Positions 2,886 to 35,047 of a DNA stretch of 37,422 nt are shown here, piece after piece. Numbering within the stretch: position 1 is the first letter of the stretch; each line of letters begins with the position of its first letter. Position numbers and translations under genes: made by a program. This DNA comes from a bacterium (GTDB lineage: Bacteria > SZUA-79 > Acidulodesulfobacterales > Acidulodesulfobacteraceae), in the NCBI GenBank assembly GCA_021806885.1, contig JAKAPT010000008.1:1-37422 (forward strand). Reading direction: 5' to 3'. The notes below the pieces were generated by a model. It was not told the DNA's origin, made no database searches, and saw nothing but the letters and a program-made list of their open reading frames with translations.

Positions 2886-4034
2886 CTATTGAGCGGGTCG
2901 CGCAAAATATTGCGGGCCTTTAGCCGCGCCGATTAATTCCGTAATATTGTTGCTGCCAACGTTAGCCGTCCAGACGTCCCCTGAGGCGTCTATAGCTATA
3001 CCCTCAGGAGAAATCCCGACTTTATAAATACCCAAAACCGCGCCGTTAGAGTTAAATTCGGTAACAGTATTGCCTCCGCCGTTAGCCGTCCAGACGTCCC
3101 CTGAGGCGTCTATAGCGACAGCGAAAGGTCCTGTCGTATCCAAAGCAGATGAAGGAGAAGAAACCTCATAATTTCCTATAACCGCTCCTGCGGGATTTAA
3201 TTTCACGACGCCGCTTCCGCCCGTAACCCATACATCGCCTGACGGGTCTATAGCTATCCCTCTTGCCCCTGGACCCACGGGATAAATCCCCGCAACCGTG
3301 CCCGCGGGGCTTAACTTATAAACGTTGCCGCTGAAATAATTAGCCACCCAGACGTTGCCGGAAGCGTCAATAGCTATACCCGAAGGCATTATTCCAGCTT
3401 TATATGCCCCTATAAAAGACCCGTCTCCGCTTAGCTTGGAGACATTTTCGCTTCCGGCGTTAGCGGTCCAGACGTCCCCTGAGGCGTCAATGGCTACGGC
3501 TGAGGGCATAAGACCGCCTCCCGCCAATTTATTTAAGTTCAGCCACCTTGCCGTGCTATACTTGCCTTCTATAGCGCCTGAAAGACTTAACTTTACAATA
3601 TTAAATTCCCCGCCTCGGTCGGCTACCCATACGCTACCGGAGGAGCGGCCTATAACTATCACGTTTGGATATAAAAAGGCTTTGCCGTTGCCGGCTTTTA
3701 CCTTGCCTATAAAATCGCCTCTTCCGATACCCTTTACCACGGCCATCTGTTCTTTCTCTACCTGCTTCAGTTCATTTTCGATGTTATACGTCCCGATAAC
3801 AACGCCTTTTTGACTGAATTTCATAATATTGTCGCTTTTTTTATTAGCCACCCAGACGTTGCCGGAAGAATCCACCGCTATCGCTCTGGGCTCTTTTCCC
3901 GCTTTAAATGTTCTGGTTTTAACGCTGCCGAGGCTTTTACCGGAGTTTTTATTTTGGCAGCCGGATAAAACAAGCGAAACAAACAATAAAAGGACCGCAG
4001 TTCCGAAAAATGAATATACGCGTAATTTCTTCAT
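2886..4034 (-). CDS. NHL/Vgb-type seven-repeat propeller lipoprotein (copy A)
   Basis: A 382-residue lipoprotein: a hydrophobic segment followed by the lipobox LSGC at residue 26. The mature part has seven units built around AIDASGDVWTAN, the signature of NHL or virginiamycin-B-lyase-like beta-propellers; the second unit is divergent (IGRSSGSVWVAD) and preceded by a linker rich in K and E. The C-terminal tail TELIGAAKGPQYF is shared with the neighbouring copy at 4106-5224. No strong ribosome binding site is visible before the ATG. The Vgb catalytic residues could not be recognised, so an enzyme role is not claimed; a binding or scaffold role at the membrane is the safer inference. Confidence 0.8.
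   Translation of the reverse strand: MKKLRVYSFFGTAVLLLFVSLVLSGCQNKNSGKSLGSVKTRTFKAGKEPRAIAVDSSGNVWVANKKSDNIMKFSQKGVVIGTYNIENELKQVEKEQMAVVKGIGRGDFIGKVKAGNGKAFLYPNVIVIGRSSGSVWVADRGGEFNIVKLSLSGAIEGKYSTARWLNLNKLAGGGLMPSAVAIDASGDVWTANAGSENVSKLSGDGSFIGAYKAGIMPSGIAIDASGNVWVANYFSGNVYKLSPAGTVAGIYPVGPGARGIAIDPSGDVWVTGGSGVVKLNPAGAVIGNYEVSSPSSALDTTGPFAVAIDASGDVWTANGGGNTVTEFNSNGAVLGIYKVGISPEGIAIDASGDVWTANVGSNNITELIGAAKGPQYFARPAQ
2961..3116 (-). repeat. two identical 36-nt repeats 120 nt apart inside the propeller gene
   Basis: The 36 nt at 2961-2996 recur without change at 3081-3116, and a near copy (three changes) lies at 3459-3494. They encode the AIDASGDVWTAN core of propeller repeats 7, 6 and 3. Identity at synonymous positions is more than protein selection needs and suggests recent duplication or gene conversion between blades. 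Confidence 0.8.
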
Positions 4035-4105
4035 AAACGCAGTTTTTTAAATCATAAAATAATCAGATGCTATATAATTAATTTCTATAATATTAACATT
4101 GGCGC

Positions 4106-5224
4106 TTAAGGCCACTGAGGGCCTCTATACGGAAAATACTCCGGACCCTTAGCGGCGCCGATTAATTCCGTAACGTCGTCCAATCCTCCGTCAGCTACCC
4201 AGACGTTGCCGGAGGCGTCTATCGCTATTGCATCCGGGTTATGCCCCGCTGGATACGTCCTGATAAGCGTGCCGGAGGAATTTAATTCCGTAACGTTATT
4301 GCCCGCCTCATTGACGACCCAGACATTGCCGGAGGCGTCTATCGCTATCGCCCGCGGCGAATCTCCCGTTTTATAAGTCCCTATTACGGCGCCCGCCGGG
4401 CTTAATTTAGCAACAACGTTTCTAAGGCCGCCGCCCAGCCAGATATCACCTGACTTATCCACGGCTATCGAACTCGGCGAACCGATTAAAGGAGCTCCGG
4501 CTTTATATTTGCCGATTATACCGCCTTGCGCGCTTAATTCCGTAACGGTATTAAATAAATCGTTAGTTGCCAGAACGTCGCCGGAAGACTCTACCGCTAT
4601 ATGGGTAATATTTCTTCCGGCCGGGTAGCCCGATATGCCCGACACAAGAACCCCTTCAGGGCTTGCTTCGATAACGCCGCCGGGGCCGGCCGTCCATATA
4701 TTTCCGCTGCCGTCTATTGCCATGCCGGCCCCGGTGGCAACTATAGGAGACTTTAACGATGTTCCATATATCCTGGCAACGCCGGCCTGGTTCATCCCGA
4801 CAAGCTTTCCGTTATCAATTAGCCAGATATTGCCTGGGGCGTCTATCGCTATGACGCCGCTAAGCGATTTAAAACCGGCTATTGACGGCACCGGATATGT
4901 ACCTATAAGCGCGCCTTTCTGGTTTAACTTAGTTATATCGGCGCTGCCGCCATTAACTACCCAGATATTGCCCGAGGCGTCTATCGCTATAGCCGTGGGT
5001 TCTGTTCCAACCTTAAACGTTAGGGTGGACGGCCTATTGCCGCCAAGAGATGCCGCTGTTATCTGAAGGCTTACAGGCTTCCGTGCGCCGCCTTTGCCCG
5101 GGTTACTATTGCTGCAACCGGATAAAGCAATCATGGACAGTATAAAAAATGCCTGAAACGCTATAGATAAACGCAGGAACTTTAAAAACATGCCGAACGC
5201 GATTCCTGTTTTTATTATTTTCAT
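4106..5224 (-). CDS. NHL/Vgb-type seven-repeat propeller lipoprotein (copy B)
   Basis: A 372-residue lipoprotein with a long hydrophobic N-terminus and lipobox LSGC at residue 37. Seven units of the form AIAIDASGNVWVAD fill the mature protein, predicting one seven-bladed propeller. The last blade runs into TELIGAAKGPEYF, nearly identical to the tail of copy A, so the two genes are tandem duplicates. The start has TGAGGGG about 8 nt upstream. Role unknown: sugar, lipid or peptidoglycan binding and lyase activity are all seen among such propellers. It lies between copy A and a membrane protein gene, all on the same strand with gaps of 30-70 bp. Confidence 0.8.
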   Translation of the reverse strand: MKIIKTGIAFGMFLKFLRLSIAFQAFFILSMIALSGCSNSNPGKGGARKPVSLQITAASLGGNRPSTLTFKVGTEPTAIAIDASGNIWVVNGGSADITKLNQKGALIGTYPVPSIAGFKSLSGVIAIDAPGNIWLIDNGKLVGMNQAGVARIYGTSLKSPIVATGAGMAIDGSGNIWTAGPGGVIEASPEGVLVSGISGYPAGRNITHIAVESSGDVLATNDLFNTVTELSAQGGIIGKYKAGAPLIGSPSSIAVDKSGDIWLGGGLRNVVAKLSPAGAVIGTYKTGDSPRAIAIDASGNVWVVNEAGNNVTELNSSGTLIRTYPAGHNPDAIAIDASGNVWVADGGLDDVTELIGAAKGPEYFPYRGPQWP

Positions 5225-12128: not shown

Positions 12129-12866
12129 TTACATGGACGTGTATAGGTGTCCGTAAGGCCTTGCGCTTGAAGGAACTATTTTATAAAAAGGCTCTTTAAG
12201 TATTTCTTCAAGCGACAAATTAAAAGACTCGGCAAACTCCATGAAATATTTTTTTAAGAAATCAATGTCTTTATCGCCTGATTCATAAAGCTCCACTTCT
12301 TTCGAATATTTCGCAAAATTCCCTTTTTTTCTTATATAAATCACGCCTCCATGCATTCCTGAGGCGAAATAATCGCCCGCGGAATAATCCTCTCCATTAA
12401 GACCCAGGAGAACGATAATGCCGCCGGCCATATACTCCGCGAAAAAACTTCCGACCTTCCCTCCAATAATTAAAACCGGGAGCTGTTCGTTGTAACCCTT
12501 CATGTGTATTCCTACCCTGTAGCCGGCGTTGCCAAGGATGTAAATTCTTCCTCCCCTCATGCCGTACCCAACGACATCTCCTGCGTCGCCTTTCACGACA
12601 ATCTTTCCCGCGTTCATTGTGTTGCCGATATTGTCTTGCGCGTTATTGTTAACTATAATGGTTGGGCCATCCATAAACGCCCCCAGGTCGTTTCCGGGAA
12701 CCCCGTTAATATTTATGATTACGTCATCCCCTTTTATGCCGTCCCCTATATAGTACTGACCGTTTACGTTCTCAAGGAAAAATTTTTTAACCCCCCTTAA
12801 AATACCCTCCCGGATTGTCCTGTTTAAATCCTTATAGTGCATTCCGGAGGCGTCGATAGTCATCAT
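12129..12866 (-). CDS. glutamate synthase C-terminal (GXGXG) domain as a separate protein
   Basis: A 245-residue right-handed beta-helix domain equal to the C-terminal part of bacterial GltB. The repeats are clear: GVPGNDLGAFMDGPTIIVNN, NIGNTMNAGKIVVKGDAGD, VGYGMRGGRIYILGNAGYRV and FASGMHGGVIYIRK. In the complex this domain is structural and positions the ammonia tunnel next to the FMN domain. ATG-ATG doublet at the start; GGAG lies 12 nt upstream. It is last of the three split glutamate synthase genes, 36 bp after the FMN-domain gene. Confidence 0.9.
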   Translation of the reverse strand: MMTIDASGMHYKDLNRTIREGILRGVKKFFLENVNGQYYIGDGIKGDDVIININGVPGNDLGAFMDGPTIIVNNNAQDNIGNTMNAGKIVVKGDAGDVVGYGMRGGRIYILGNAGYRVGIHMKGYNEQLPVLIIGGKVGSFFAEYMAGGIIVLLGLNGEDYSAGDYFASGMHGGVIYIRKKGNFAKYSKEVELYESGDKDIDFLKKYFMEFAESFNLSLEEILKEPFYKIVPSSARPYGHLYTSM

Positions 12867-12902
12867 AGCCGGTTTTAGCTCCTTTTATTTATATACGTCG
12901 TT

Positions 12903-14423
12903 TTATAATCCAGCGTGTTTAATCCCAAGAACATTAAGCTCCGCGTCCGTAAGCTCGACTCCCCTGAGCCTTTCCCTGGACCCTCTGAGGCTTTCAATGG
13001 AATTAACCCCCATCGCGCCAAGGACTTCCTGGATTTCATGGCCCCACGCGGAGATAAGGTTATAGAGCCTCTCCCCATAAACCTCCGGGTCAAGCCTCCT
13101 GGCCAGTTCAGGTCTCTGGGTGGTAATGCCCCAACTGCAATTTCCGGTATTGCATTTCCCGCAGACGTGACAACCCATAGCGACAAGGGCTGCCGTTCCA
13201 ATGGCAACGGCATCGGCCCCAAGGGCGAAAGCCTTAACGGCGTCCGCGCTCGAGCGAATGCTTCCGGCGGCTATAAGCGAGGCTTCGTTCCTTATCCCCT
13301 CATCCCTGAGCCTCTGGTCAACCTGGGCAAGGGCAAGCTCTATCGGGATGCCCACATGATCCTTGATAATATTGGGCGCCGCCCCGGTGCCTCCCGTATA
13401 ACCATCTATATATACTATATCCGCACCGGCCCTCACAACGCCGCTCACTATGGCGGCTATGTTGTGTACCGCGGCAATCTTAACCGAAACAGGCTTTTCA
13501 TAATTTGTCGCTTCTTTTATAGCAAAAATAAGCTGCCTTAAGTCCTCGATAGAATATATATCGTGGTGAGGAGCCGGTGAAATCGCGTCGGTACCGACCG
13601 GTATCATCCTTGTCTTTGATATGTCGACCCCGATCTTCTCTCCGGGCAAATGACCGCCTATTCCGGGCTTGGCGCCCTGCCCGATTTTTATTTCAACCGC
13701 GATGCCACTGTTAAGATAATCCCTGTGGACGCCAAACCTGCCTGAGGCTACCTGCACAATAATGTTTTTACCGAACGGAACAAGGTCGTCATGAAGCCCT
13801 CCCTCGCCGGTATTCATAACCGTTCCGAGTGCCCTTGCCGCAAGGGCTATCGCCTTCTGGGCATTCAGGGATATAGAGCCATAGGACATCGCGCCAAATA
13901 CAAACGGGGTTTGAAGCTCTATCTGAGGGGATATTTTCGTCTTTAATGTCGCCTCCCCGGCCCCGTTAAGGTCAATGTCAAGTTTTGACGGTTTCTTGCC
14001 AAGGTATGTTTTAAGCTCCATCGGCTCCCTGAGAGGGTCAATGGAGGGGTTTGTAACCTGGCACGCGTCGAGCAATATATGGTCAAAGTATTTCTTGTAT
14101 TTAAGGGTGGTGCCCATGCCTGAAATAATGATGCCGCCGGTTTCCGACTGCTTCCAGATGGTTTTTATATGGGCTTCCTTCCAATTGTTATTTTCCCTTA
14201 TTACTGTAGGATTTTTTACTATGGAAATAGCGCCCTCGGGGCAATAGGTGTAGCACCTGCCGCAGGCGACGCATTTTTCATGTTCGGCAAGAATCTTGTC
14301 GCCGCCAAAACTATACGTGCCCCAGCCGCAATTCTGTATGCATCTTTTGCACCTGACGCATTTCGTATGGTCTATAATAGCAAGATATTCGGATTGTATA
14401 TTAGAAAAACCGGATTTATTCAT
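12903..14423 (-). CDS. gltB: glutamate synthase FMN/FeS domain with N-terminal ferredoxin
   Basis: A 506-residue catalytic core of ferredoxin-type (archaeal-type) glutamate synthase, which reduces 2-iminoglutarate to glutamate. Residues 20-63 carry two 4Fe-4S clusters (C22, C25, C28, C32 and C51, C54, C57, C61). From about residue 145 comes the FMN barrel (PFVFGAMSYGSISLNAQKA, TGEGGLHDD, GQGAKPGIGGHLPG, GYTGGTGAAPN) with the 3Fe-4S motif CHVCGKCNTGNC near 430. The ATG overlaps the stop of the glutaminase-domain gene (ATGA). The fused ferredoxin domain suggests electrons arrive by iron-sulfur clusters, and no NADPH-binding GltD is present in the window. Confidence 0.93.
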   Translation of the reverse strand: MNKSGFSNIQSEYLAIIDHTKCVRCKRCIQNCGWGTYSFGGDKILAEHEKCVACGRCYTYCPEGAISIVKNPTVIRENNNWKEAHIKTIWKQSETGGIIISGMGTTLKYKKYFDHILLDACQVTNPSIDPLREPMELKTYLGKKPSKLDIDLNGAGEATLKTKISPQIELQTPFVFGAMSYGSISLNAQKAIALAARALGTVMNTGEGGLHDDLVPFGKNIIVQVASGRFGVHRDYLNSGIAVEIKIGQGAKPGIGGHLPGEKIGVDISKTRMIPVGTDAISPAPHHDIYSIEDLRQLIFAIKEATNYEKPVSVKIAAVHNIAAIVSGVVRAGADIVYIDGYTGGTGAAPNIIKDHVGIPIELALAQVDQRLRDEGIRNEASLIAAGSIRSSADAVKAFALGADAVAIGTAALVAMGCHVCGKCNTGNCSWGITTQRPELARRLDPEVYGERLYNLISAWGHEIQEVLGAMGVNSIESLRGSRERLRGVELTDAELNVLGIKHAGL

Positions 14424-15553
14424 AAATTAACCATCCCCCTTTTATGGCGCTCCAGTTCTTCAAACCTTGCAATTACCGGCGCGCCTGCCTCCGGGGACCA
14501 AACCATGTCCGGAGAGGGACAAATCGATTTTATCGCGGCCTCTTCAGAACCGACATATGTAAAATCGCCCATTGTAGCGGCGACAAGCGGCCTGAGCTTT
14601 ATCCTGTCGTTCATGGCGACCATGCCGCCTGAAAAGCCAAAAACAATGGCAAAAGGCCCATTTAAAACCGCGCTGCCGTAAATCTGCCTGAGAGCCGTCA
14701 ATAATTCCCGTTTGCCGGGCTCCATCCTGTCTATAGCCTGGTAAAACGGGGGCGCGAGAACCAGCGTCGCGATTTCAACCGGAAGGCCGTGTTTTCTTAT
14801 TAAAAGGTCAAGAATATAGGTAATTACCTCGGTATCCGTTTTTAACGCGAGGTTGTATTTAAACATCTCGAGGTATCTTTTGTTAATGCCGTAGGATGAA
14901 ATCTCTCCATTATGGACGATCGACCAGTCCAGAAGAGTAAATGGATGCGCGCCGCCCCACCACCCCGGAGTATTTGTAGGAAAACGGTTGTGGGCTGTCC
15001 ACATATAGCCCATCACTTCGTCGAGCATGAAGAAATCGGCGATATCCTCCGGATAACCGACGCCCTTGAAAGCGCCCATGTTTTTCCCGCTTGAAAAAAC
15101 ATAAGCGCCGTCATAATTTTGATTGATGGTCATGACGCTTTGAACCACGAAATCGTCGTCGTCAAGGTCACGAAAAAGCTTATCCTGCCTGTCGGATTTG
15201 GGCCTCATGAAATACCTGAAAAGATAAGGATGATCTTTAATGACGGTTTTTTTAGACGTAGGGATAGGTTCGCTCTTTTCTATGATAAAATTGTTTTTGA
15301 GATATTCGTCGACGTCGTTTTTCGCTGATAGATTGTCGTACATTATGTGAAACGCGTAGAGGTCGGAATACTCCGGGTAATTCCCGTAAACCGCAAAACC
15401 TCCTCCAAGGCCGTTTCCCCTGTCATGTTCGACCGTTATGGCCTTTTTAATGCCAGATCCGTCAAACCTTACCCTCTTTGTATTTATTACGCCAAACAGG
15501 CCGCATCCAGAGATATCCCTTTCAACGCTGAATTTATTTTTTAATTTAAGCAC
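14420..15553 (-). CDS. glutamate synthase glutaminase domain (class II amidotransferase)
   Basis: A 377-residue Ntn-type glutamine amidotransferase that releases ammonia from glutamine for the adjacent FMN domain. The catalytic cysteine is C17 in SGCGLFGVIN; class II enzymes use an N-terminal Cys, so a 16-residue leader would need removal. Later motifs are WTAHNRFPTNTPGWWGGAHP and WSIVHNGEISSYG, which hold the glutamine site. The start is GTG with an AAGAGGG site, and a perfect 6-bp hairpin sits just upstream of that site. It is first of the three gltB-part genes and overlaps the second by 4 bp. Confidence 0.9.
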   Translation of the reverse strand: MLKLKNKFSVERDISGCGLFGVINTKRVRFDGSGIKKAITVEHDRGNGLGGGFAVYGNYPEYSDLYAFHIMYDNLSAKNDVDEYLKNNFIIEKSEPIPTSKKTVIKDHPYLFRYFMRPKSDRQDKLFRDLDDDDFVVQSVMTINQNYDGAYVFSSGKNMGAFKGVGYPEDIADFFMLDEVMGYMWTAHNRFPTNTPGWWGGAHPFTLLDWSIVHNGEISSYGINKRYLEMFKYNLALKTDTEVITYILDLLIRKHGLPVEIATLVLAPPFYQAIDRMEPGKRELLTALRQIYGSAVLNGPFAIVFGFSGGMVAMNDRIKLRPLVAATMGDFTYVGSEEAAIKSICPSPDMVWSPEAGAPVIARFEELERHKRGMVNL

Positions 15554-19002: not shown

Positions 19003-20079
19003 ATGGAAAAAAAGATTTTAAAAAAATCCGTCTATGATTCGTCCCTCTCTGAAATGGAGGAATTTTGCGTTTCCAGGGGTTTTAAAAAATATAACGCGTT
19101 TCAGGCAATGAGATGGTTATATTTTTATGGACGGCAGGATTTTGATAAAATGACGGATATTCCAAAAAAGTTGAGGGAAATCCTTCCCCTTAATTTCTCC
19201 ACGGAGTTCCCTGAAATCTTAAATACAATGGACGAAGAAGACCTGGGCGGGCGGTCCAGAAAATACCTGCTCAGGCTTAAGGATGGTGAAACCGTGGAAT
19301 CCGTATTTATTAATTACGATAAAAGAAAAACGCTGTGCGTTTCATCCCAGGCAGGATGCAGGATGGGATGCGCTTTTTGCGAGACATCCTTTCCGGGGCT
19401 CGTCAGGAACCTTTCTTCCGGGGAAATTATATCGCAAGTCCTTCTTATCCGGAAACATTCGGGAGAGGATATTACGAATATTGTTTTCATGGGAATGGGC
19501 GAGCCCCTCGATAACATTTCAGCCGTCAACAGGTCTATCGCGATAATGACGGAGCCAAATTTTATGGGGATAGCCCCGCGGAAAATAACAATTTCTACAT
19601 GCGGATTACTTGATAAACTTGAGGAATTAGAAAACAAAAAATGCAAACTCGCGATTTCCCTCAACGCGTCTAATGACCGCACAAGAACATCTCTCATGCC
19701 CGTAAACAGGAAATACGGCCTTGAGGATATAGCTAGTTTTACAAAGAAAAAACCTCCTTCGATACACAACAAAATAACCCTTGAATACGTCATGATAAAG
19801 GGGCTGAACGACTCTAAAGCGGATTTGAAAGAGCTTATAAGAATGTTTTCCCCTGCCCGCGTAAAGTTTAACCTTATTCCCCTTAACAAATCAGGGTCAA
19901 CGGAACGGATGGAGGGCATGGACAGGCCGGAAAATAAAGTTATCGCCGATTTTAAAGAAAAATTGTCGAGGGCGGGGTTTGCCGTAACGGTGAGGTTTTC
20001 AAAGGCGCAATCCATAAATGGGGGATGCGGCCAGCTTAAGGCAAGGCAGAAGCGTGAAGGAAATCAATATTTGCTATAA
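19003..20079 (+). CDS. rlmN: 23S rRNA/tRNA (adenine-C2) methyltransferase RlmN
   Basis: A 358-residue radical SAM enzyme methylating C2 of A2503 in 23S rRNA and A37 in tRNAs. The radical SAM cysteines are C119, C123 and C126 (AGCRMGCAFCETSF), followed by GLVRNLSSGEI, VFMGMGEPLDN, ISTCGLLDKL and LAISLNASNDRTR. The methyl-carrying cysteine is in the C-terminal GGCGQL, separating it from unrelated radical SAM families. CET in place of the usual CAT occurs in some RlmN groups. One of three plus-strand genes; its 3' end overlaps the convergent DUF4445 gene by 44 bp. No strong ribosome site is seen before the ATG. Confidence 0.93.
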   Translation: MEKKILKKSVYDSSLSEMEEFCVSRGFKKYNAFQAMRWLYFYGRQDFDKMTDIPKKLREILPLNFSTEFPEILNTMDEEDLGGRSRKYLLRLKDGETVESVFINYDKRKTLCVSSQAGCRMGCAFCETSFPGLVRNLSSGEIISQVLLIRKHSGEDITNIVFMGMGEPLDNISAVNRSIAIMTEPNFMGIAPRKITISTCGLLDKLEELENKKCKLAISLNASNDRTRTSLMPVNRKYGLEDIASFTKKKPPSIHNKITLEYVMIKGLNDSKADLKELIRMFSPARVKFNLIPLNKSGSTERMEGMDRPENKVIADFKEKLSRAGFAVTVRFSKAQSINGGCGQLKARQKREGNQYLL

Positions 20080-21310
20080 AACGCTTTTCAAAAAGAGAAC
20101 TTCCTGAAAGGGGGAAGTTTTTTGAAAGAGTTATTATTTTTTTAATCTCATCCGATCTTTCCTTTTTTTCAGAGGAAAGATATTTAAGGCATCCGGAAAG
20201 GACAGAACCCTCAATAAAATTGATTTTTTTTTCTTTAAATGGGAATATATCGAGTAAATCGATTACAGAAGGGTCTATATGCGTTCCGAACGAACCGGAA
20301 ATAAACACGTCGAAATCGGATTCCGCGGAAATTTTATATTTTTCCATAAGTATTTCCGAAGCCGATTTTACGGCCGATTTTGCAAGCTGAAATTGCCTTA
20401 AATCCTTTTGAAGGAACTTTAAGGGTTTTCCTTTCTCGAAATCAAGTATTATTTCGTTCGCGTCTTCCCCCTTGTGGACAATAGAATAGCTTTCCGACGC
20501 TACTTTTTCTGGGGGGAGAATCCTTCCCGTTGCGTCAATTACCTTTTCCTTTAACAGGGAGTAGACAAGGGCCATAATCCCGCTTCCGCAGAGCCCCGCG
20601 GGACTTTCTCCCCCGATAACCTCGAACTCGAACTTTCCTTCTTTAAGTTTTACTCCTGTTATCGCCCCCGGCAGCGCCGTCATGCCGGAGCTAATGTTGC
20701 CCCCTTCGAATGCCGGTCCGGCCGGGGCAGAGGTAATGTATACCTTTTCCCTGTTTCCCACCGCGATCTCGACATTTGTCCCAAAATCGGCAAAAAAAAT
20801 TACCCTTTCCTTTTTTTGCATATCGAGGTAATAAATGGATGAAACTGCGTCTCCCCCTGCAAACCCGTCTAAGACCGGAAAAATAAATAATTCCCTTCCC
20901 TGTGGACAAAGCCCCGGCAGGAAATCGGTTATGGAGGGAAAAAATACTTCGGAAAGGGGCCTGTATGGCGGTTTCGAGAGGGATTTAAGGGGATATCCGC
21001 ACAGGGCCATTTCCATCACGGTGTTTCCGGCTACCGCAAGCGATTTTATTTCCGAACACTTTATTCCCGCAACCTTTTCAATCTCTTCCGTTAAAAGATT
21101 AAAAGTTGAAACCGCTTTTTCCTGAAGCCTCTTGACCGATGGCCCATCCAGCCCGTTTTGAATCCTTTTTATGGAATCAATCCCAAAATAGGGATACTGG
21201 AGGTTTAAAGAACTTGCTGAAAATAAAGGGACGGAACTCCCCGCTTCTATCAGGGAGGCTGCAACGGTAGTTGTTCCAAGATCTATTCCGAGATAATAAT
21301 CTTTTCGCAT
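20036..21310 (-). CDS. DUF4445/ASKHA corrinoid-protein reductive activator lacking the ferredoxin domain
   Basis: A 424-residue protein of the RamA/RACE-type ASKHA ATPase group (DUF4445) that uses ATP to reduce inactive Co(II) corrinoid proteins. Nucleotide-binding motifs: YLGIDLGTTTVAASLI, FADFGTNVEIAVG, SAPAGPAFEGGNISSGM, AGLCGSGIMALV and FISGSFGTHIDP. Typical members are about 600 residues with an N-terminal 2Fe-2S domain; here that domain is absent and the protein starts directly at the ATPase fold. The ATG follows the selD stop with no gap (TAAATG). Its likely target is the MetH at 30470-32908, which lacks its own reactivation domain; this is inferred. Confidence 0.82.
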   Translation of the reverse strand: MRKDYYLGIDLGTTTVAASLIEAGSSVPLFSASSLNLQYPYFGIDSIKRIQNGLDGPSVKRLQEKAVSTFNLLTEEIEKVAGIKCSEIKSLAVAGNTVMEMALCGYPLKSLSKPPYRPLSEVFFPSITDFLPGLCPQGRELFIFPVLDGFAGGDAVSSIYYLDMQKKERVIFFADFGTNVEIAVGNREKVYITSAPAGPAFEGGNISSGMTALPGAITGVKLKEGKFEFEVIGGESPAGLCGSGIMALVYSLLKEKVIDATGRILPPEKVASESYSIVHKGEDANEIILDFEKGKPLKFLQKDLRQFQLAKSAVKSASEILMEKYKISAESDFDVFISGSFGTHIDPSVIDLLDIFPFKEKKINFIEGSVLSGCLKYLSSEKKERSDEIKKIITLSKNFPLSGSSLFEKRFIANIDFLHASALP

Positions 21311-22369
21311 TTAAGAAACAAGGTTAATAAGGCTCTTCCCCCGGACTTTCTTTCCAGAAACCATGCCGATCCTGAAAAGTGGTTCGCCTGAGTCGCCGAA
21401 AAGCCTCTCGAGTCTCTTTGCATTTTTTGACGAAACAGACATTAAAAGGCCTCCCGACGTTTCAGCCCCATAAGAAAGCCACACATGGTTTTCATCAGGG
21501 AAACCGGCCTCGGACACAAACCTTGAAAAATATTTTCTGTTTCTTTTTGTTCCGGAGGGATTTACGCCCTTTTCAATTAAAGTAAAGACACCCTTTATTG
21601 CCGGAAGGGATTTAAGGTCGATATCGCAGGAGGTCCCGCTGGCCACCATCATCTCGCTCAGATGCCCTATGAGTCCGAAACCGGTGACATCCGTAAGGGC
21701 GTTAGGCGCTTTAATGGAAACCGCAAGCTTAGAGGCTTTTTTATTAAGCTTTGCCATTGAAAGGGATGCCTCCTTAAGGGAATCTGCCTTTAAAAAGCTT
21801 TCGCAAAGTGCACTAACTATAAATCCTGTCCCCAGTTTTTTAGTAAGATACAAAAAATCCCCGGGCATCGCACCTTTGTTTGAATAAATCTCATTTACAT
21901 GACATATTCCCGTAACGCATAAACCATATTTAATCTCCTTGTCGTCTATCGAATGCCCTCCAAGAAGGGCGGCGCCAGATTCATTTATTTTATCAAGGCC
22001 GCCATGAAGTATCTGGTTAAAAACCTCCTTCTCGACTGTATCAACCGGAAAGCACGCCAGATTTAAGGCGGTAATAGGACGGCCTCCCATCGCGTATACA
22101 TCGGAAAGGGCGTTAGCGGCCGCTATCTGCCCGAAAGTATATGGGTCGTCAACCACCGGAGTAAAAAAATCAACAGTCTGTATGATGCACGTGTCTCCGT
22201 TTATTTTATATATGCCGGCGTCATCCTTATAGTTGAACCCTACAAGGACATTTTTATTTTCCGGGACATGCAGCTTTTCAAGAATAAGGGAAAGGTCCTC
22301 CGGACCTATCTTGCAGCCTCACCCGTGGGCGCTGGTCATGCTCGTAAGCTTATACTTTTTAGATGTCAT
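21311..22369 (-). CDS. selD: selenophosphate synthetase with in-frame UGA (selenocysteine)
   Basis: SelD makes selenophosphate from selenide and ATP. The plain open frame starts only at 22156, but the homology continues upstream through a TGA at 22319-22321 to an ATG at 22369. The N-terminus is then MTSKKYKLTSMTSAHG, U, GCKIG, with U at residue 17, the position of catalytic Cys17 in E. coli SelD. Downstream are VGFNYKDDAGIY, QTVDFFTPVVDDPYTFGQIA and ANALSDVYAMGG, all expected for the family. Read this way the protein has 352 residues, a normal length. A SECIS-like hairpin follows the UGA. The gene lies 6 bp after mlaD and abuts the DUF4445 gene. selA is in the same run; selB and tRNA-Sec are not in the window. 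Confidence 0.95.
22293..22321 (-). promoter_or_regulatory. selenocysteine UGA codon and bacterial SECIS-like hairpin in selD
   Basis: UGA is at 22319-22321. Starting 11 nt after it, AGGTCC-GGA-GGACCT (22293-22307) forms a perfect 6-bp stem with a GGA loop. The loop begins 17 nt after the UGA and its first base is G, both within the accepted bacterial SECIS pattern for SelB binding. A T-T mismatch and two further pairs (GA/TC) can extend the stem. Confidence 0.85.
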
Positions 22370-26301: not shown

Positions 26302-27732
26302 TTATGGGCCTAAATTTCTTAATGCATTTGTTATATCTTTAAAATCTCTTCCGGTAATCGTCCTTAAATCCATCATGAACTTGTTATTTTTTATCTTCCC
26401 TATGACGGGAACCCTTGCCTTCAGAAGCAGCCTAGACAATCTGTCCGGATCAATAAGTTTATGGGTAACCGCAAGGGAGAATGTCGGCAGTTCGTAATCC
26501 GGGAGGGCCCCTCCGCCGACAATGCTCTTATCCTCCTTGATTTCAAAATAAAAAAGATTCTTGTCCACGCCGTTATCTTTTTTAATCTGGCTCAAAAGGC
26601 GGAGGGCCTTTTTCTTGATTTCCGGACCCTTAAGGGACAGAAAAGATAAAGTGGGTATATTCCGGACCGCGGCATCGCTATCTTGATATTCAAATAGAAC
26701 CGCTTCGAGGGCGGCAAGCGTCATCTTGTCGATCCTGAAAGCCCTGTTTAACGGATTTGACGCGATCATGTCGACGAATTCGGTTTTTCCCGCGATTATA
26801 CCTGCCTGGGGCCCTCCGAGGAGTTTATCGCCGCTGAACGTTACTATATCGACCCCCGCTTTAATGACCTCCTGGGCCGTAGGTTCATGCGGAAGACCGA
26901 ACCTCTGAATGTCAACAAAACTGCCCGATCCCAGGTCTTCCATTACGGGCACCCGGTATTTTTTCCCGAGCGTAACAATCTCCGGGCTAGAAAGCTCTGA
27001 AACAAAACCCCTCATCCTGAAATTGCTCTGGTGTACCTTTAGTAGGAGCGCGGTATTTTCATTTATACTTTTTTCGTAATCGGATATTTTTGTCTTGTTG
27101 GTAGTACCGACCTCCACGAGAACGGCCCCTGAAGCTTTCATTATATCGGGTATCCTGAAAGAGCCTCCTATTTCGATGAGTTCCCCTCTCGATACAATGA
27201 CCTCCTTTCTCTTTCCTGAGCAAAAAGAGGACAACGCCATAAAAACGGCGGCGGCATTGTTATTTACCGCCACCGCGCTCTCGCAATTCAATATTTTTTG
27301 AACAAGGCGCTCCACGTGGGAATATCTCCTTCCCCGTTTGCCCTCATCGAGATTATACTCGAGGTTTGAGTATGAACCGGATATATCCTCAACATTTTTT
27401 ATTGCCCTTTCCGGAAGGATGGAACGCCCAAGGTTGGTGTGGATTACAACGCCCGTGCCGTTCACCACTCTTTTGAGATTAAAGGAAAATTCCTTCAAAT
27501 CATTAATCATTTTTCGCGCGAAATAAGAAGGAGAGAAAATGTCGTTTGCAACCTCTCCTTCCTTTCCTTTATTTAATAAGTCAATTACCTCGTTCTTTTT
27601 TTTGTTAATTAAGGCATTTAACCTTTCTTTGACGAAAAAGCGGGGGAAATCTTTCGCGAAAATTTTAAGTTCCCGGTCTTCAAGGATTTCCTGAACGGCG
27701 GGAAACTTTCTTAGAATCTCATTTTTTTTCAA
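26302..27732 (-). CDS. selA: L-seryl-tRNA(Sec) selenium transferase
   Basis: A 476-residue PLP enzyme converting Ser-tRNA(Sec) to Sec-tRNA(Sec) with selenophosphate from SelD. The N-terminal domain starts LRKFPAVQEIL; the core holds NGTGVVIHTNLGRS, AVNNNAAAVFMAL, SRGELIEIGGSFRIPDIM, EVGTTNKT, EDLGSGS and the PLP lysine K303 in FSGDKLLGGPQAG. The start appears to be TTG at 27732 with GGGGGTG upstream, since no in-frame ATG lies near the family N-terminus. It begins 6 bp after the recO stop. Together with the UGA-containing selD it shows that the organism inserts selenocysteine. Confidence 0.95.
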   Translation of the reverse strand: MKKNEILRKFPAVQEILEDRELKIFAKDFPRFFVKERLNALINKKKNEVIDLLNKGKEGEVANDIFSPSYFARKMINDLKEFSFNLKRVVNGTGVVIHTNLGRSILPERAIKNVEDISGSYSNLEYNLDEGKRGRRYSHVERLVQKILNCESAVAVNNNAAAVFMALSSFCSGKRKEVIVSRGELIEIGGSFRIPDIMKASGAVLVEVGTTNKTKISDYEKSINENTALLLKVHQSNFRMRGFVSELSSPEIVTLGKKYRVPVMEDLGSGSFVDIQRFGLPHEPTAQEVIKAGVDIVTFSGDKLLGGPQAGIIAGKTEFVDMIASNPLNRAFRIDKMTLAALEAVLFEYQDSDAAVRNIPTLSFLSLKGPEIKKKALRLLSQIKKDNGVDKNLFYFEIKEDKSIVGGGALPDYELPTFSLAVTHKLIDPDRLSRLLLKARVPVIGKIKNNKFMMDLRTITGRDFKDITNALRNLGP

Positions 27733-28536: not shown

Positions 28537-28901
28537 TGTCCGGAATGAAATATTATAAAAATTCCAGTTATTATTACAAAAACCCCTATCCATCTCTTGA
28601 GGCTTACTTCTTCCTTAAGGAATATTCTCGATAAAAGCACCACGATAACGTAGCCGCTTGAAAGCATTGGATACGCAACTGAAAGCGGAAGCCTTGAGAG
28701 GGCCATCAGGTAAAATACGGTGGCAAGAAAAAGCATTATAAGCGCGGCGAATATATAAGGATTTAAAAAAACAAAAAATGATTTCACGCCAATTTTCAAA
28801 TGGCTTTTTTTAATTTTCCCGGAGCCTATTTTTTGCAAAACCTGCCCGACGGATGTAAATAATACGGCCAGAAACATGAAGATATAGATTTTAATAAGCA
28901 T
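28533..28901 (-). CDS. small four-helix SMR/EamA-type transporter
   Basis: A 122-residue membrane protein with four predicted helices (about 3-20, 42-66, 70-90 and 98-118). LSRLPLSVAYPMLSSGYVIV is the signature of the small multidrug resistance/ArnE-like half-transporters, which dimerise. Substrate is unknown: drug efflux and lipid-linked sugar flipping are both found in this group. The start overlaps the murT stop (TAATG) and its stop overlaps the recO start, so it is translationally linked on both sides; the murT link makes an envelope role attractive but unproven. Confidence 0.75.
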   Translation of the reverse strand: MLIKIYIFMFLAVLFTSVGQVLQKIGSGKIKKSHLKIGVKSFFVFLNPYIFAALIMLFLATVFYLMALSRLPLSVAYPMLSSGYVIVVLLSRIFLKEEVSLKRWIGVFVIITGIFIIFHSGQ

Positions 28902-30316
28902 TAAGAAATATACCTTCTAAGATTCGCGAGCTCGGTATAGGTGGACAGGACAAAAACATTCCCGCGCTCCTCTTTTTTTCTTTCGTGTATTCCCGCGATA
29001 TATTTTAAGGATTTTTTCATGTCGTGCTCGACGGTGATTTTTTCTTTACCAATGCCTGCCGTTTTTAATCTTACCGCCATATCAAAGGGCCTTAAGCCGG
29101 TAATAACAATATTACCAAAAATTTTTACAAAAGGTTCGAAATTAACGTCCCAGATCCATGAAACGTCTCTTCCGTCCGCGTCCCTGTCTGAAAAAGCAAA
29201 GAGGGCGTCAACGGATTTTAGTCCGCTGCCGGCTATCTTTTCAAGTACCCTGTCGAACCCGGAGGGATTCTTGACAAGGTCCACGTTTATTTCCATTCCC
29301 CTGTACGAGCCCTTATAAGAGCGTCCATACCTTGTCCTAAAATTTTCGAACGAATTTCCAATAGCCGCTTCAGGAACATTAAACTTTGAGAGGACCGCGT
29401 ACGCCGCTAAATAGTTCGCCATGTTATAATCGCCTTCGACAGATGGCTTGAAGGAAAGCGATTTGCCCGTATCCCCGTCTGAAATTGTTTTGTAACCGCC
29501 TGGAGCCGAACCGGCCGATATACGGGGGGATGGATTTTGAAACCCGCATTTGCCGCATCTGAACTTTAACAGGAATATGTTCCCGGCACTGCCGGTATAT
29601 TCAAGGATATTTCCGCAGTTTGGACATGCCATCGCGTCCGCGGGGACAAGGGGGGAGCTATTCCATGCACCCTTTGCGGGGCGGGCAGCTGCCTGTTCCT
29701 GAGACGCGTTTTCAATGAAACCATAATATAACGCATGATTATTAAGCCCGTATCCGATAGACGAGGCCAGGGGCTCATAAGACGGCAGGACAAAAAACGG
29801 ATTGTACCGGAGCGCTTTCACCGCGTTTTTAATTTCGGTGACAGTTGTATTTACTTCACCGTATCTGTCAAGCTGGTCCCTGTACAGGTTTGTAACGACT
29901 ATGACCTCGGGCTTAAGCCTGGAAACAATGTAGGGAAAAATCTTTTCGTCCGTCTCCGCCACCAGAAATTTTGAGTTGAATCTGAAATTAAGCCCATATC
30001 CTCCCATAATTGCCCCGAAAATCCCGTTGGGCATATTAGCGCCATTCAGGTTGGCGCATACCGTTTCACCGGAGGCTTTAAGACCTTCCGCTATGAGGTT
30101 TGACGCGGTGGTCTTGCCATTTGTCCCTGTCACAATTATTATATGGGTATTGCCTGAGGTTACGTCCCTCGAAAGATCATCAAATATATTCCTGTCCAAT
30201 ATTTTTAACAGATGAGCGGGAAGAACACCCCCCTGCCTCATGAAAATTTTATTAAGAATAAATTTCAGGAAAAAATAGATTATAATTTCAAATTTTTCTT
30301 TAAAACTTAAATACAT
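28901..30316 (-). CDS. murT: lipid II isoglutaminyl synthase, ATP-ligase subunit MurT
   Basis: A 471-residue Mur-ligase-like protein that activates the D-Glu alpha-carboxylate of lipid II for amidation, using ammonia from GatD. The P-loop is VTGTNGKTT (about 62-70), followed by VVTNLYRDQLDRYGE. A four-cysteine zinc ribbon typical of MurT is present (C231, C234, C254, C257), and the C-terminal domain has LVKNPSGFDRVLEKI, FSDRDADGRDVSWIWDVNFE and RRYIS at the end. A Pro/Ala-rich insert (about 207-228) precedes the ribbon. Full-length MurF/MurE features are absent. This enzyme is characteristic of Gram-positive bacteria, so its presence with a diderm gene set is notable. Partner gatD is at 34277-35047. 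Confidence 0.9.
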   Translation of the reverse strand: MYLSFKEKFEIIIYFFLKFILNKIFMRQGGVLPAHLLKILDRNIFDDLSRDVTSGNTHIIIVTGTNGKTTASNLIAEGLKASGETVCANLNGANMPNGIFGAIMGGYGLNFRFNSKFLVAETDEKIFPYIVSRLKPEVIVVTNLYRDQLDRYGEVNTTVTEIKNAVKALRYNPFFVLPSYEPLASSIGYGLNNHALYYGFIENASQEQAAARPAKGAWNSSPLVPADAMACPNCGNILEYTGSAGNIFLLKFRCGKCGFQNPSPRISAGSAPGGYKTISDGDTGKSLSFKPSVEGDYNMANYLAAYAVLSKFNVPEAAIGNSFENFRTRYGRSYKGSYRGMEINVDLVKNPSGFDRVLEKIAGSGLKSVDALFAFSDRDADGRDVSWIWDVNFEPFVKIFGNIVITGLRPFDMAVRLKTAGIGKEKITVEHDMKKSLKYIAGIHERKKEERGNVFVLSTYTELANLRRYIS

Positions 30317-33852: not shown

Positions 33853-34296
33853 ATGTCCCCGGGGAAAGGCAGGTTTTTCGATAAAAGGTTTGACGTCCAG
33901 AAAAAAGAGAACATCGACGTCAATGCGCTGGAAACGCTTCCGTTCGATTATCCGCAGGGTAACACAACCGTTACCATCGGGACAAAGGAATTTACCTCTG
34001 TTTGCCCATGGTCGGGATTACCCGACACCGCAGAGCTTTTAATCACTTATATTCCCGATAAAAAACTGGTTGAAATGAAATCCCTTAAATACTACCTTCT
34101 TTCTTTCAGGAACGTGGGTATTCTTCAGGAACATGCGGCAAACAGAATATTAAAGGATTTAAGCGCTCTCTTAAAACCTAAGTTAATGGAAATTGAGGCA
34201 AGGTTTGAATCGAGGGGAGGACTTAACACGATAGTAAGGGCGAGTTATAGCGCTCGAAAAGCAAGGCTGCCCCGCTCTAAACGACGAAGCCTTTAA
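33853..34296 (+). CDS. queF: preQ0 reductase QueF
   Basis: A 147-residue type I (unimodular) NADPH-dependent 7-cyano-7-deazaguanine reductase, making preQ1 for queuosine tRNA modification. The thioimide-forming cysteine is C51 in FTSVCPWSG and the proton donor is D58 (GLPD). The NADPH/folding motif is MKSLKYYLLSFRN. Start chosen as the ATG at 33853, giving normal length. It converges on gatD with a 20-bp overlap. No preQ1 riboswitch was recognised in the short leader; a TATAAT box lies at 33818-33823 without a clear -35. Confidence 0.93.
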   Translation: MSPGKGRFFDKRFDVQKKENIDVNALETLPFDYPQGNTTVTIGTKEFTSVCPWSGLPDTAELLITYIPDKKLVEMKSLKYYLLSFRNVGILQEHAANRILKDLSALLKPKLMEIEARFESRGGLNTIVRASYSARKARLPRSKRRSL

Positions 34297-35047
34297 GCTC
34301 TTCTATGTCTTTCCTGGCGCCTGTTTCAAGGGCGTCGTCAATCTTCGTCCCATTCCGGTCTGAAATTTCCCGAAGGGATACGCCATAACGATTTATCAAG
34401 GCTATATCGAGAAGGTAATCGCAAAAGGAAAAGTTTTTGGGAAGAAAACTTCCGTGGAGATATGTGCCAAAAAAATTGTTTGTCCTTGCGCCTTCCGTTC
34501 CATCCTCACCGTTGTTTCCGTAACCTTTGAGAACCGTCCCTAGGGGTTCTTGATTTTTTTCCAGATATGTCCTCCCCCCATGGTTTTCAAATCCAACCAG
34601 CGTAAACCCCGTTGCCTCGAACCTTGCGGCAATGTTCCCCGTAAGCCTGGGAGAACCGGACTGCGTGTATCCCTTGAATATTGAAATTCCCTTCATCGTC
34701 TTTCCGTCAGCAGCCCTGTAATAATCGCACAGAAGCTGGTAGCTGCCGCAAATAGCAAGCATTATCCTGTTTTTATCGAGCGCTTTTCTAATATTATCTT
34801 TTTTGTTTAAGAAGAAATCCGCGTAGATTAAAACCTGCTCCGCGTCCTGGCCCCCGCCCATAAAAACGATGTCGGTCGTATCGGGGTTGAAATTACCTTT
34901 CAGGGATATATTTTCCACTTTGACATCTATTCCGTAGAGGGACGCCCTGTATTTAAAATAAAGGATATTTCCCCTGTCGCCGTATATATTCATTATCTCA
35001 GGATAAATGTCCGCCGCGTTCAGCTCAAAGCTTTTATTCTTGCCCAT
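34277..35047 (-). CDS. gatD: lipid II isoglutaminyl synthase, glutaminase subunit GatD
   Basis: A 256-residue class I (CobB/CobQ-like) glutamine amidotransferase that supplies ammonia to MurT. The nucleophile is C100 in LAICGSYQLL and the catalytic histidine is H198 in TYLHGSFLPKN; FMGGGQDAEQ and GFENHGGRTYL are further family marks. Cobyric acid synthases share the fold, but the small single-domain size and the presence of MurT in the same stretch favour GatD. It is separated from murT by queF, murI and metH, which is unusual, since the pair is normally adjacent. DUF445 lies 33 bp upstream on the same strand. Confidence 0.88.
   Translation of the reverse strand: MGKNKSFELNAADIYPEIMNIYGDRGNILYFKYRASLYGIDVKVENISLKGNFNPDTTDIVFMGGGQDAEQVLIYADFFLNKKDNIRKALDKNRIMLAICGSYQLLCDYYRAADGKTMKGISIFKGYTQSGSPRLTGNIAARFEATGFTLVGFENHGGRTYLEKNQEPLGTVLKGYGNNGEDGTEGARTNNFFGTYLHGSFLPKNFSFCDYLLDIALINRYGVSLREISDRNGTKIDDALETGARKDIEELKGFVV

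Follow-up and report, generated by a model that had tools for sequence, protein, structure and literature searches.

The selD locus and its reading frame

The window, by which is meant the whole stretch of DNA that was analysed (37,422 nucleotides), carries on its minus strand a gene for selenide, water dikinase (SelD) with an in-frame TGA, a hairpin close behind that codon and, farther upstream, a gene for selA. The features considered here are the following.

21311-22369, minus strand: selD, selenide, water dikinase, 352 amino acids with predicted selenocysteine (Sec) at position 17 (translation with TGA read-through; TIGR00476; PDB relatives 3u0o and 2yye)
22319-22321, minus strand: UGA codon 17 at the catalytic position, predicted to be read as Sec (opposite the catalytic Cys in the alignment with 3u0o and 2yye; TGA in 30 of 30 class genomes)
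22293-22307, minus strand: bacterial SECIS hairpin AGGUCC-GGA-GGACCU (fold; codons 22-24 invariant; U-A/A-U double changes; stem broken in five Cys-SelDs)
21311-22156, minus strand: shortened open reading frame with a GTG start, 281 amino acids, as expected from a standard gene caller (mechanical ORF list)
26302-27732, minus strand: selA for L-seryl-tRNA(Sec) selenium transferase, which shares the strand of selD and lies upstream of it (TIGR00474, 561 bits)

The selD frame runs from the ATG at 22369 to the stop codon at 21313-21311, and its sole interruption is the single TGA at 22321-22319 (codon 17). The read-through product of 352 residues (MTSKKYKLTSMTSAHG-U-GCKIGPEDL...) scores 362.5 bits against the equivalog model TIGR00476, for which the curated cut-off is 125 bits, with residues 7-316 covering positions 1-310 of the 311 in the profile. 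Its best solved relatives are PDB 3u0o and 2yye, which we take to be the SelD proteins of E. coli and Aquifex; the homology extends along nearly the whole length, and both have Cys where codon 17 of the present gene would specify Sec. The UxxK motif (the catalytic Cys or Sec, then xxK) is present in this alignment as U17-G-C-K20. The initial annotation had described an in-frame TGA at 22319-22321 in place of the catalytic Cys codon, and the alignment with these Cys-containing proteins, which match at the catalytic residue, bears this out; all the coordinates that it gives are correct. It had also anticipated that an automated start at 22156 would drop the catalytic N-terminus, and this is what the mechanical ORF list does, beginning selD at GTG 22156 (281 amino acids) and losing the first 71 codons together with the catalytic N-terminus. 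The read-through model corrects a gene that standard annotation shortens by 71 codons.

Conservation of the in-frame TGA

Each of the 30 class genomes searched encodes a full-length SelD, with exactly one TGA that is always at codon 17; protein identity of the 29 relatives to the present gene is 67-75%. SelD relatives at 69-74% identity include MAG SZUA-79, and the MAGs of these relatives presumably represent the SZUA-79/Acidulodesulfobacterales lineage. Throughout the class the residues flanking codon 17 show strong conservation, which, together with the solved SelDs, agrees with the earlier statement that SelD sequence is conserved on both sides of the TGA. More distant SelDs with TGA at the same codon occur in Bacillota, Deltaproteobacteria, Dehalococcoidia, Marinimicrobia, Acidobacteria MAGs and others; TGA is the majority state at this codon among the distant SelDs found, with TGC or TGT in five. 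The gene thus shows the pattern by which a bacterial selenoprotein is recognized, namely an in-frame UGA kept in relatives (30 of 30) and Cys at the equivalent place in other SelDs, and Sec decoding appears to be conserved across this uncultured class.

The hairpin downstream of the TGA

The hairpin (AGGTCC-GGA-GGACCT, 22307-22293) consists of a 6-bp stem and a GGA loop of 3 nt with G first, and its first base lies 11 nt after the TGA, in agreement with the initial annotation. The published criteria for bacterial SECIS elements (bSECIS) are a loop of 3-9 nt with a G in the first two positions, a stem of 4-16 bp, a distance of 16-37 nt from the UGA and a minimum free energy of at most -7.5 kcal/mol (PMC13188914). 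The selD element fits these criteria (3-nt loop, 6 bp, 17 nt from TGA to loop), with an energy of -9.0 kcal/mol when flanking pairs are included and -7.4 kcal/mol for the bare 15 nt. Its C-GGA-G loop follows the G-G-N motif with a closing C-G pair that is part of the published bSECIS model, and its pair probabilities are 0.9-1.0 in short contexts. When the codons downstream were recoded synonymously 5000 times, only 63 of the recodings (1.3%) yielded an equally strong hairpin that fits a SECIS, so that the element exceeds chance expectation. Taken alone, the folding energy of the 50-nt segment beginning at the TGA is unremarkable (z = -0.46), and the support for the hairpin is therefore comparative.

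Across the 30 class genomes, 158 selD codons are invariant in amino acid and only 6 of these are codon-identical throughout; three of the six are codons 22, 23 and 24, inside the hairpin. At codon 25 a single genome differs, with a G-U pair retained. In a set of 25 diverse Sec-SelDs, selected because their hairpins share the register of the present one, 89% of the stem cells form pairs, compared with 18-57% when the partners are slid, and one shuffle in 500 matched the covariation score of the stem. Four of these 25 sequences have A-U instead of U-A as the central pair, a two-sided change being seen in only one of the six stem pairs. Several further Sec-SelDs pair poorly in this register, and their hairpins may be shifted relative to it. 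Unlike the present selD, the Cys-SelDs L096, L111, L115, L117 and L118 lack the hairpin stem, forming 0-3 of the six pairs. An Rfam scan of the locus gave no SECIS match; the SECIS_1 model was also silent in 14 of 14 control genomes, and its silence here is hence uninformative.

Selenocysteine machinery and the reading of codon 17

The genome encodes a tRNA-Sec with anticodon UCA (71 bits) and a SelB above the curated cut-off (320 bits), and the selA product, at 561 bits, is well beyond the TIGR00474 cut-off of 267.9 bits, so that the SelA, SelB and tRNA-Sec expected of a bacterium with selenoproteins are all present. The initial annotation had named absence of selB and tRNA-Sec, or a TGA misread from TGC or TGT, as grounds for abandoning its selenoprotein reading; both genes were found and the TGA recurs in all 30 class genomes, and that reading is supported. 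SelB is above the cut-off in 27 of the 30 class genomes, the three without it (G010, G016 and G019) being 65-85% complete.

The sequences show directly the UGA in a conserved frame, a hairpin that is likewise conserved, and genes for SelA, SelB and tRNA-Sec; we infer insertion of Sec at codon 17 and a catalytic role for Sec17. Judged from sequence, selD almost certainly encodes a selenoprotein in which UGA 17 is read as Sec with the help of the hairpin. The hairpin would let the ribosome read through UGA codon 17 to give Sec17; the resulting 352-residue SelD would use Sec17 as its catalytic residue in converting selenide and ATP to selenophosphate, which would supply SelA for the formation of Sec-tRNA(Sec). 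SelD would thereby help to make its own active site.

Other readings of the TGA were weighed against this one. The assembly that contains the window is fragmented (82 contigs), as would suit a sequencing or assembly error in a Cys codon, but the same TGA stands in 30 of 30 class genomes and in most of the distant SelDs found; sequencing error is therefore excluded for all practical purposes, refuted by independent genomes. The mechanical call at GTG 22156 would agree with a pseudogene, or with a gene that begins downstream of the TGA. Against this, the residues flanking codon 17 are strongly conserved class-wide, the N-terminus contains the catalytic UxxK motif and can be aligned with SelDs of known structure, and the 158 codons constant in amino acid nearly all vary synonymously. 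Decay of the gene is accordingly most improbable, and the downstream start was rejected in view of the conserved N-terminus with its UxxK motif.

No supporting point was found for translation of the UGA as a residue other than Sec (e.g., Trp through a changed code or a suppressor). The complete Sec machinery (the UCA-anticodon tRNA-Sec, SelA and SelB) and the SECIS-type constraint on the hairpin both speak against a code change, which was rejected as exceedingly unlikely.

Relation to known SelD proteins

Among the selenoprotein families of prokaryotes, Sec-containing SelD ranks second in how widely it is distributed (PMC13188914). The present gene resembles known Sec-containing SelDs (selenophosphate synthetases; TIGR00476) in family, Sec position, UxxK motif (UGCK) and the hairpin just past the UGA, and sequence comparison reveals a difference in lineage only, with no functional difference seen. 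Sec-containing SelD has long been known, and the gene adds a lineage member to what is a textbook case. There is no discussion of selenium in the text of a paper on the order Acidulodesulfobacterales, and none of the papers searched mentions SZUA-79 together with a selenoprotein.

Other selenoproteins in the class

Sec-SelD is present in 30 of 30 class genomes. Sec formate dehydrogenase, recognized by a TGA within its molybdopterin domain, occurs in only 4 of 30, the present genome being among those without it; selenouridine synthase (YbbB/SelU) is absent from all 30. The distribution makes the lineage a useful case for asking what maintains Sec decoding. The four molybdopterin-domain proteins are of ~1010 amino acids with one in-frame TGA each (G008:C1:713392-714579, G011:C11:48454-49650, G018:C43:3398-4492 and G023:C50:1044-2237). 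Two of them, from G008 and G023, carry a UHAP motif together with a SECIS-like hairpin, and the G008 protein is a formate dehydrogenase-N alpha subunit (TIGR01553, 1358 bits).

The search of the present genome for selenoprotein families covered PF00384, PF07992, PF00578, PF02662 and PF01521, a few of the more than 110 prokaryotic families known (PMC13188914); matches to the first four contain no in-frame TGA, and PF01521 has no match. The only PF00384 protein of this genome is tetrathionate-reductase-like. A scan for TGA plus hairpin in the window and chosen stretches of the genome (G000; ~0.2 Mb of 1.38 Mb, about a sixth) gave SelD as the only plausible case, and it also recovered two positive controls, the Sec formate dehydrogenases of G023 and G008. 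It is conceivable, if rather doubtful, that SelD is the only selenoprotein of the genome, with selA, selB and tRNA-Sec kept solely for the Sec in SelD. If true, the Sec machinery would persist with neither Sec formate dehydrogenase nor selenouridine synthase to justify keeping it. SelD has been reported as the only selenoprotein in several YbbB-containing species (PMC1794560), which the present genome resembles in having Sec-SelD and no Sec formate dehydrogenase. Those species possess selenouridine synthase, whereas none of the 30 class genomes does, a comparison in which about one-sixth of the present genome was scanned for selenoproteins.

Gene neighbourhood and the rest of the window

The gene immediately upstream of selD, in the same orientation, is mlaD in 30 of 30 class genomes, preceded by mlaF and mlaE wherever the stretch examined reaches far enough (mlaE was not seen in L055). 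On the other side, a gene for an ASKHA-type corrinoid activator (20036-21310, minus strand), AcsV-like at a score below the cut-off, begins directly after the selD stop codon. An AcsV-like gene adjoins selD in all 30 class genomes and is inverted in genus g2. These two neighbours have no obvious selenium role.

Elsewhere in the window, MurT-like (28901-30316, minus strand) and GatD-like (34277-35047, minus strand) genes, resembling the subunits of lipid II isoglutaminyl synthase below the curated cut-offs, lie ~4 kb apart. The genome that encodes these proteins also has an Mla-type system and therefore probably an outer membrane. Three consecutive genes at 12129-15553 (minus strand) resemble a split glutamate synthase, with amidotransferase-like, ferredoxin/FMN-like and GXGXG parts. 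At 2886-5224 (minus strand), two adjacent genes encode probable lipoproteins with repeated 'IAIDASGNVWVAN'-like blades, suggestive of a beta-propeller-like fold.
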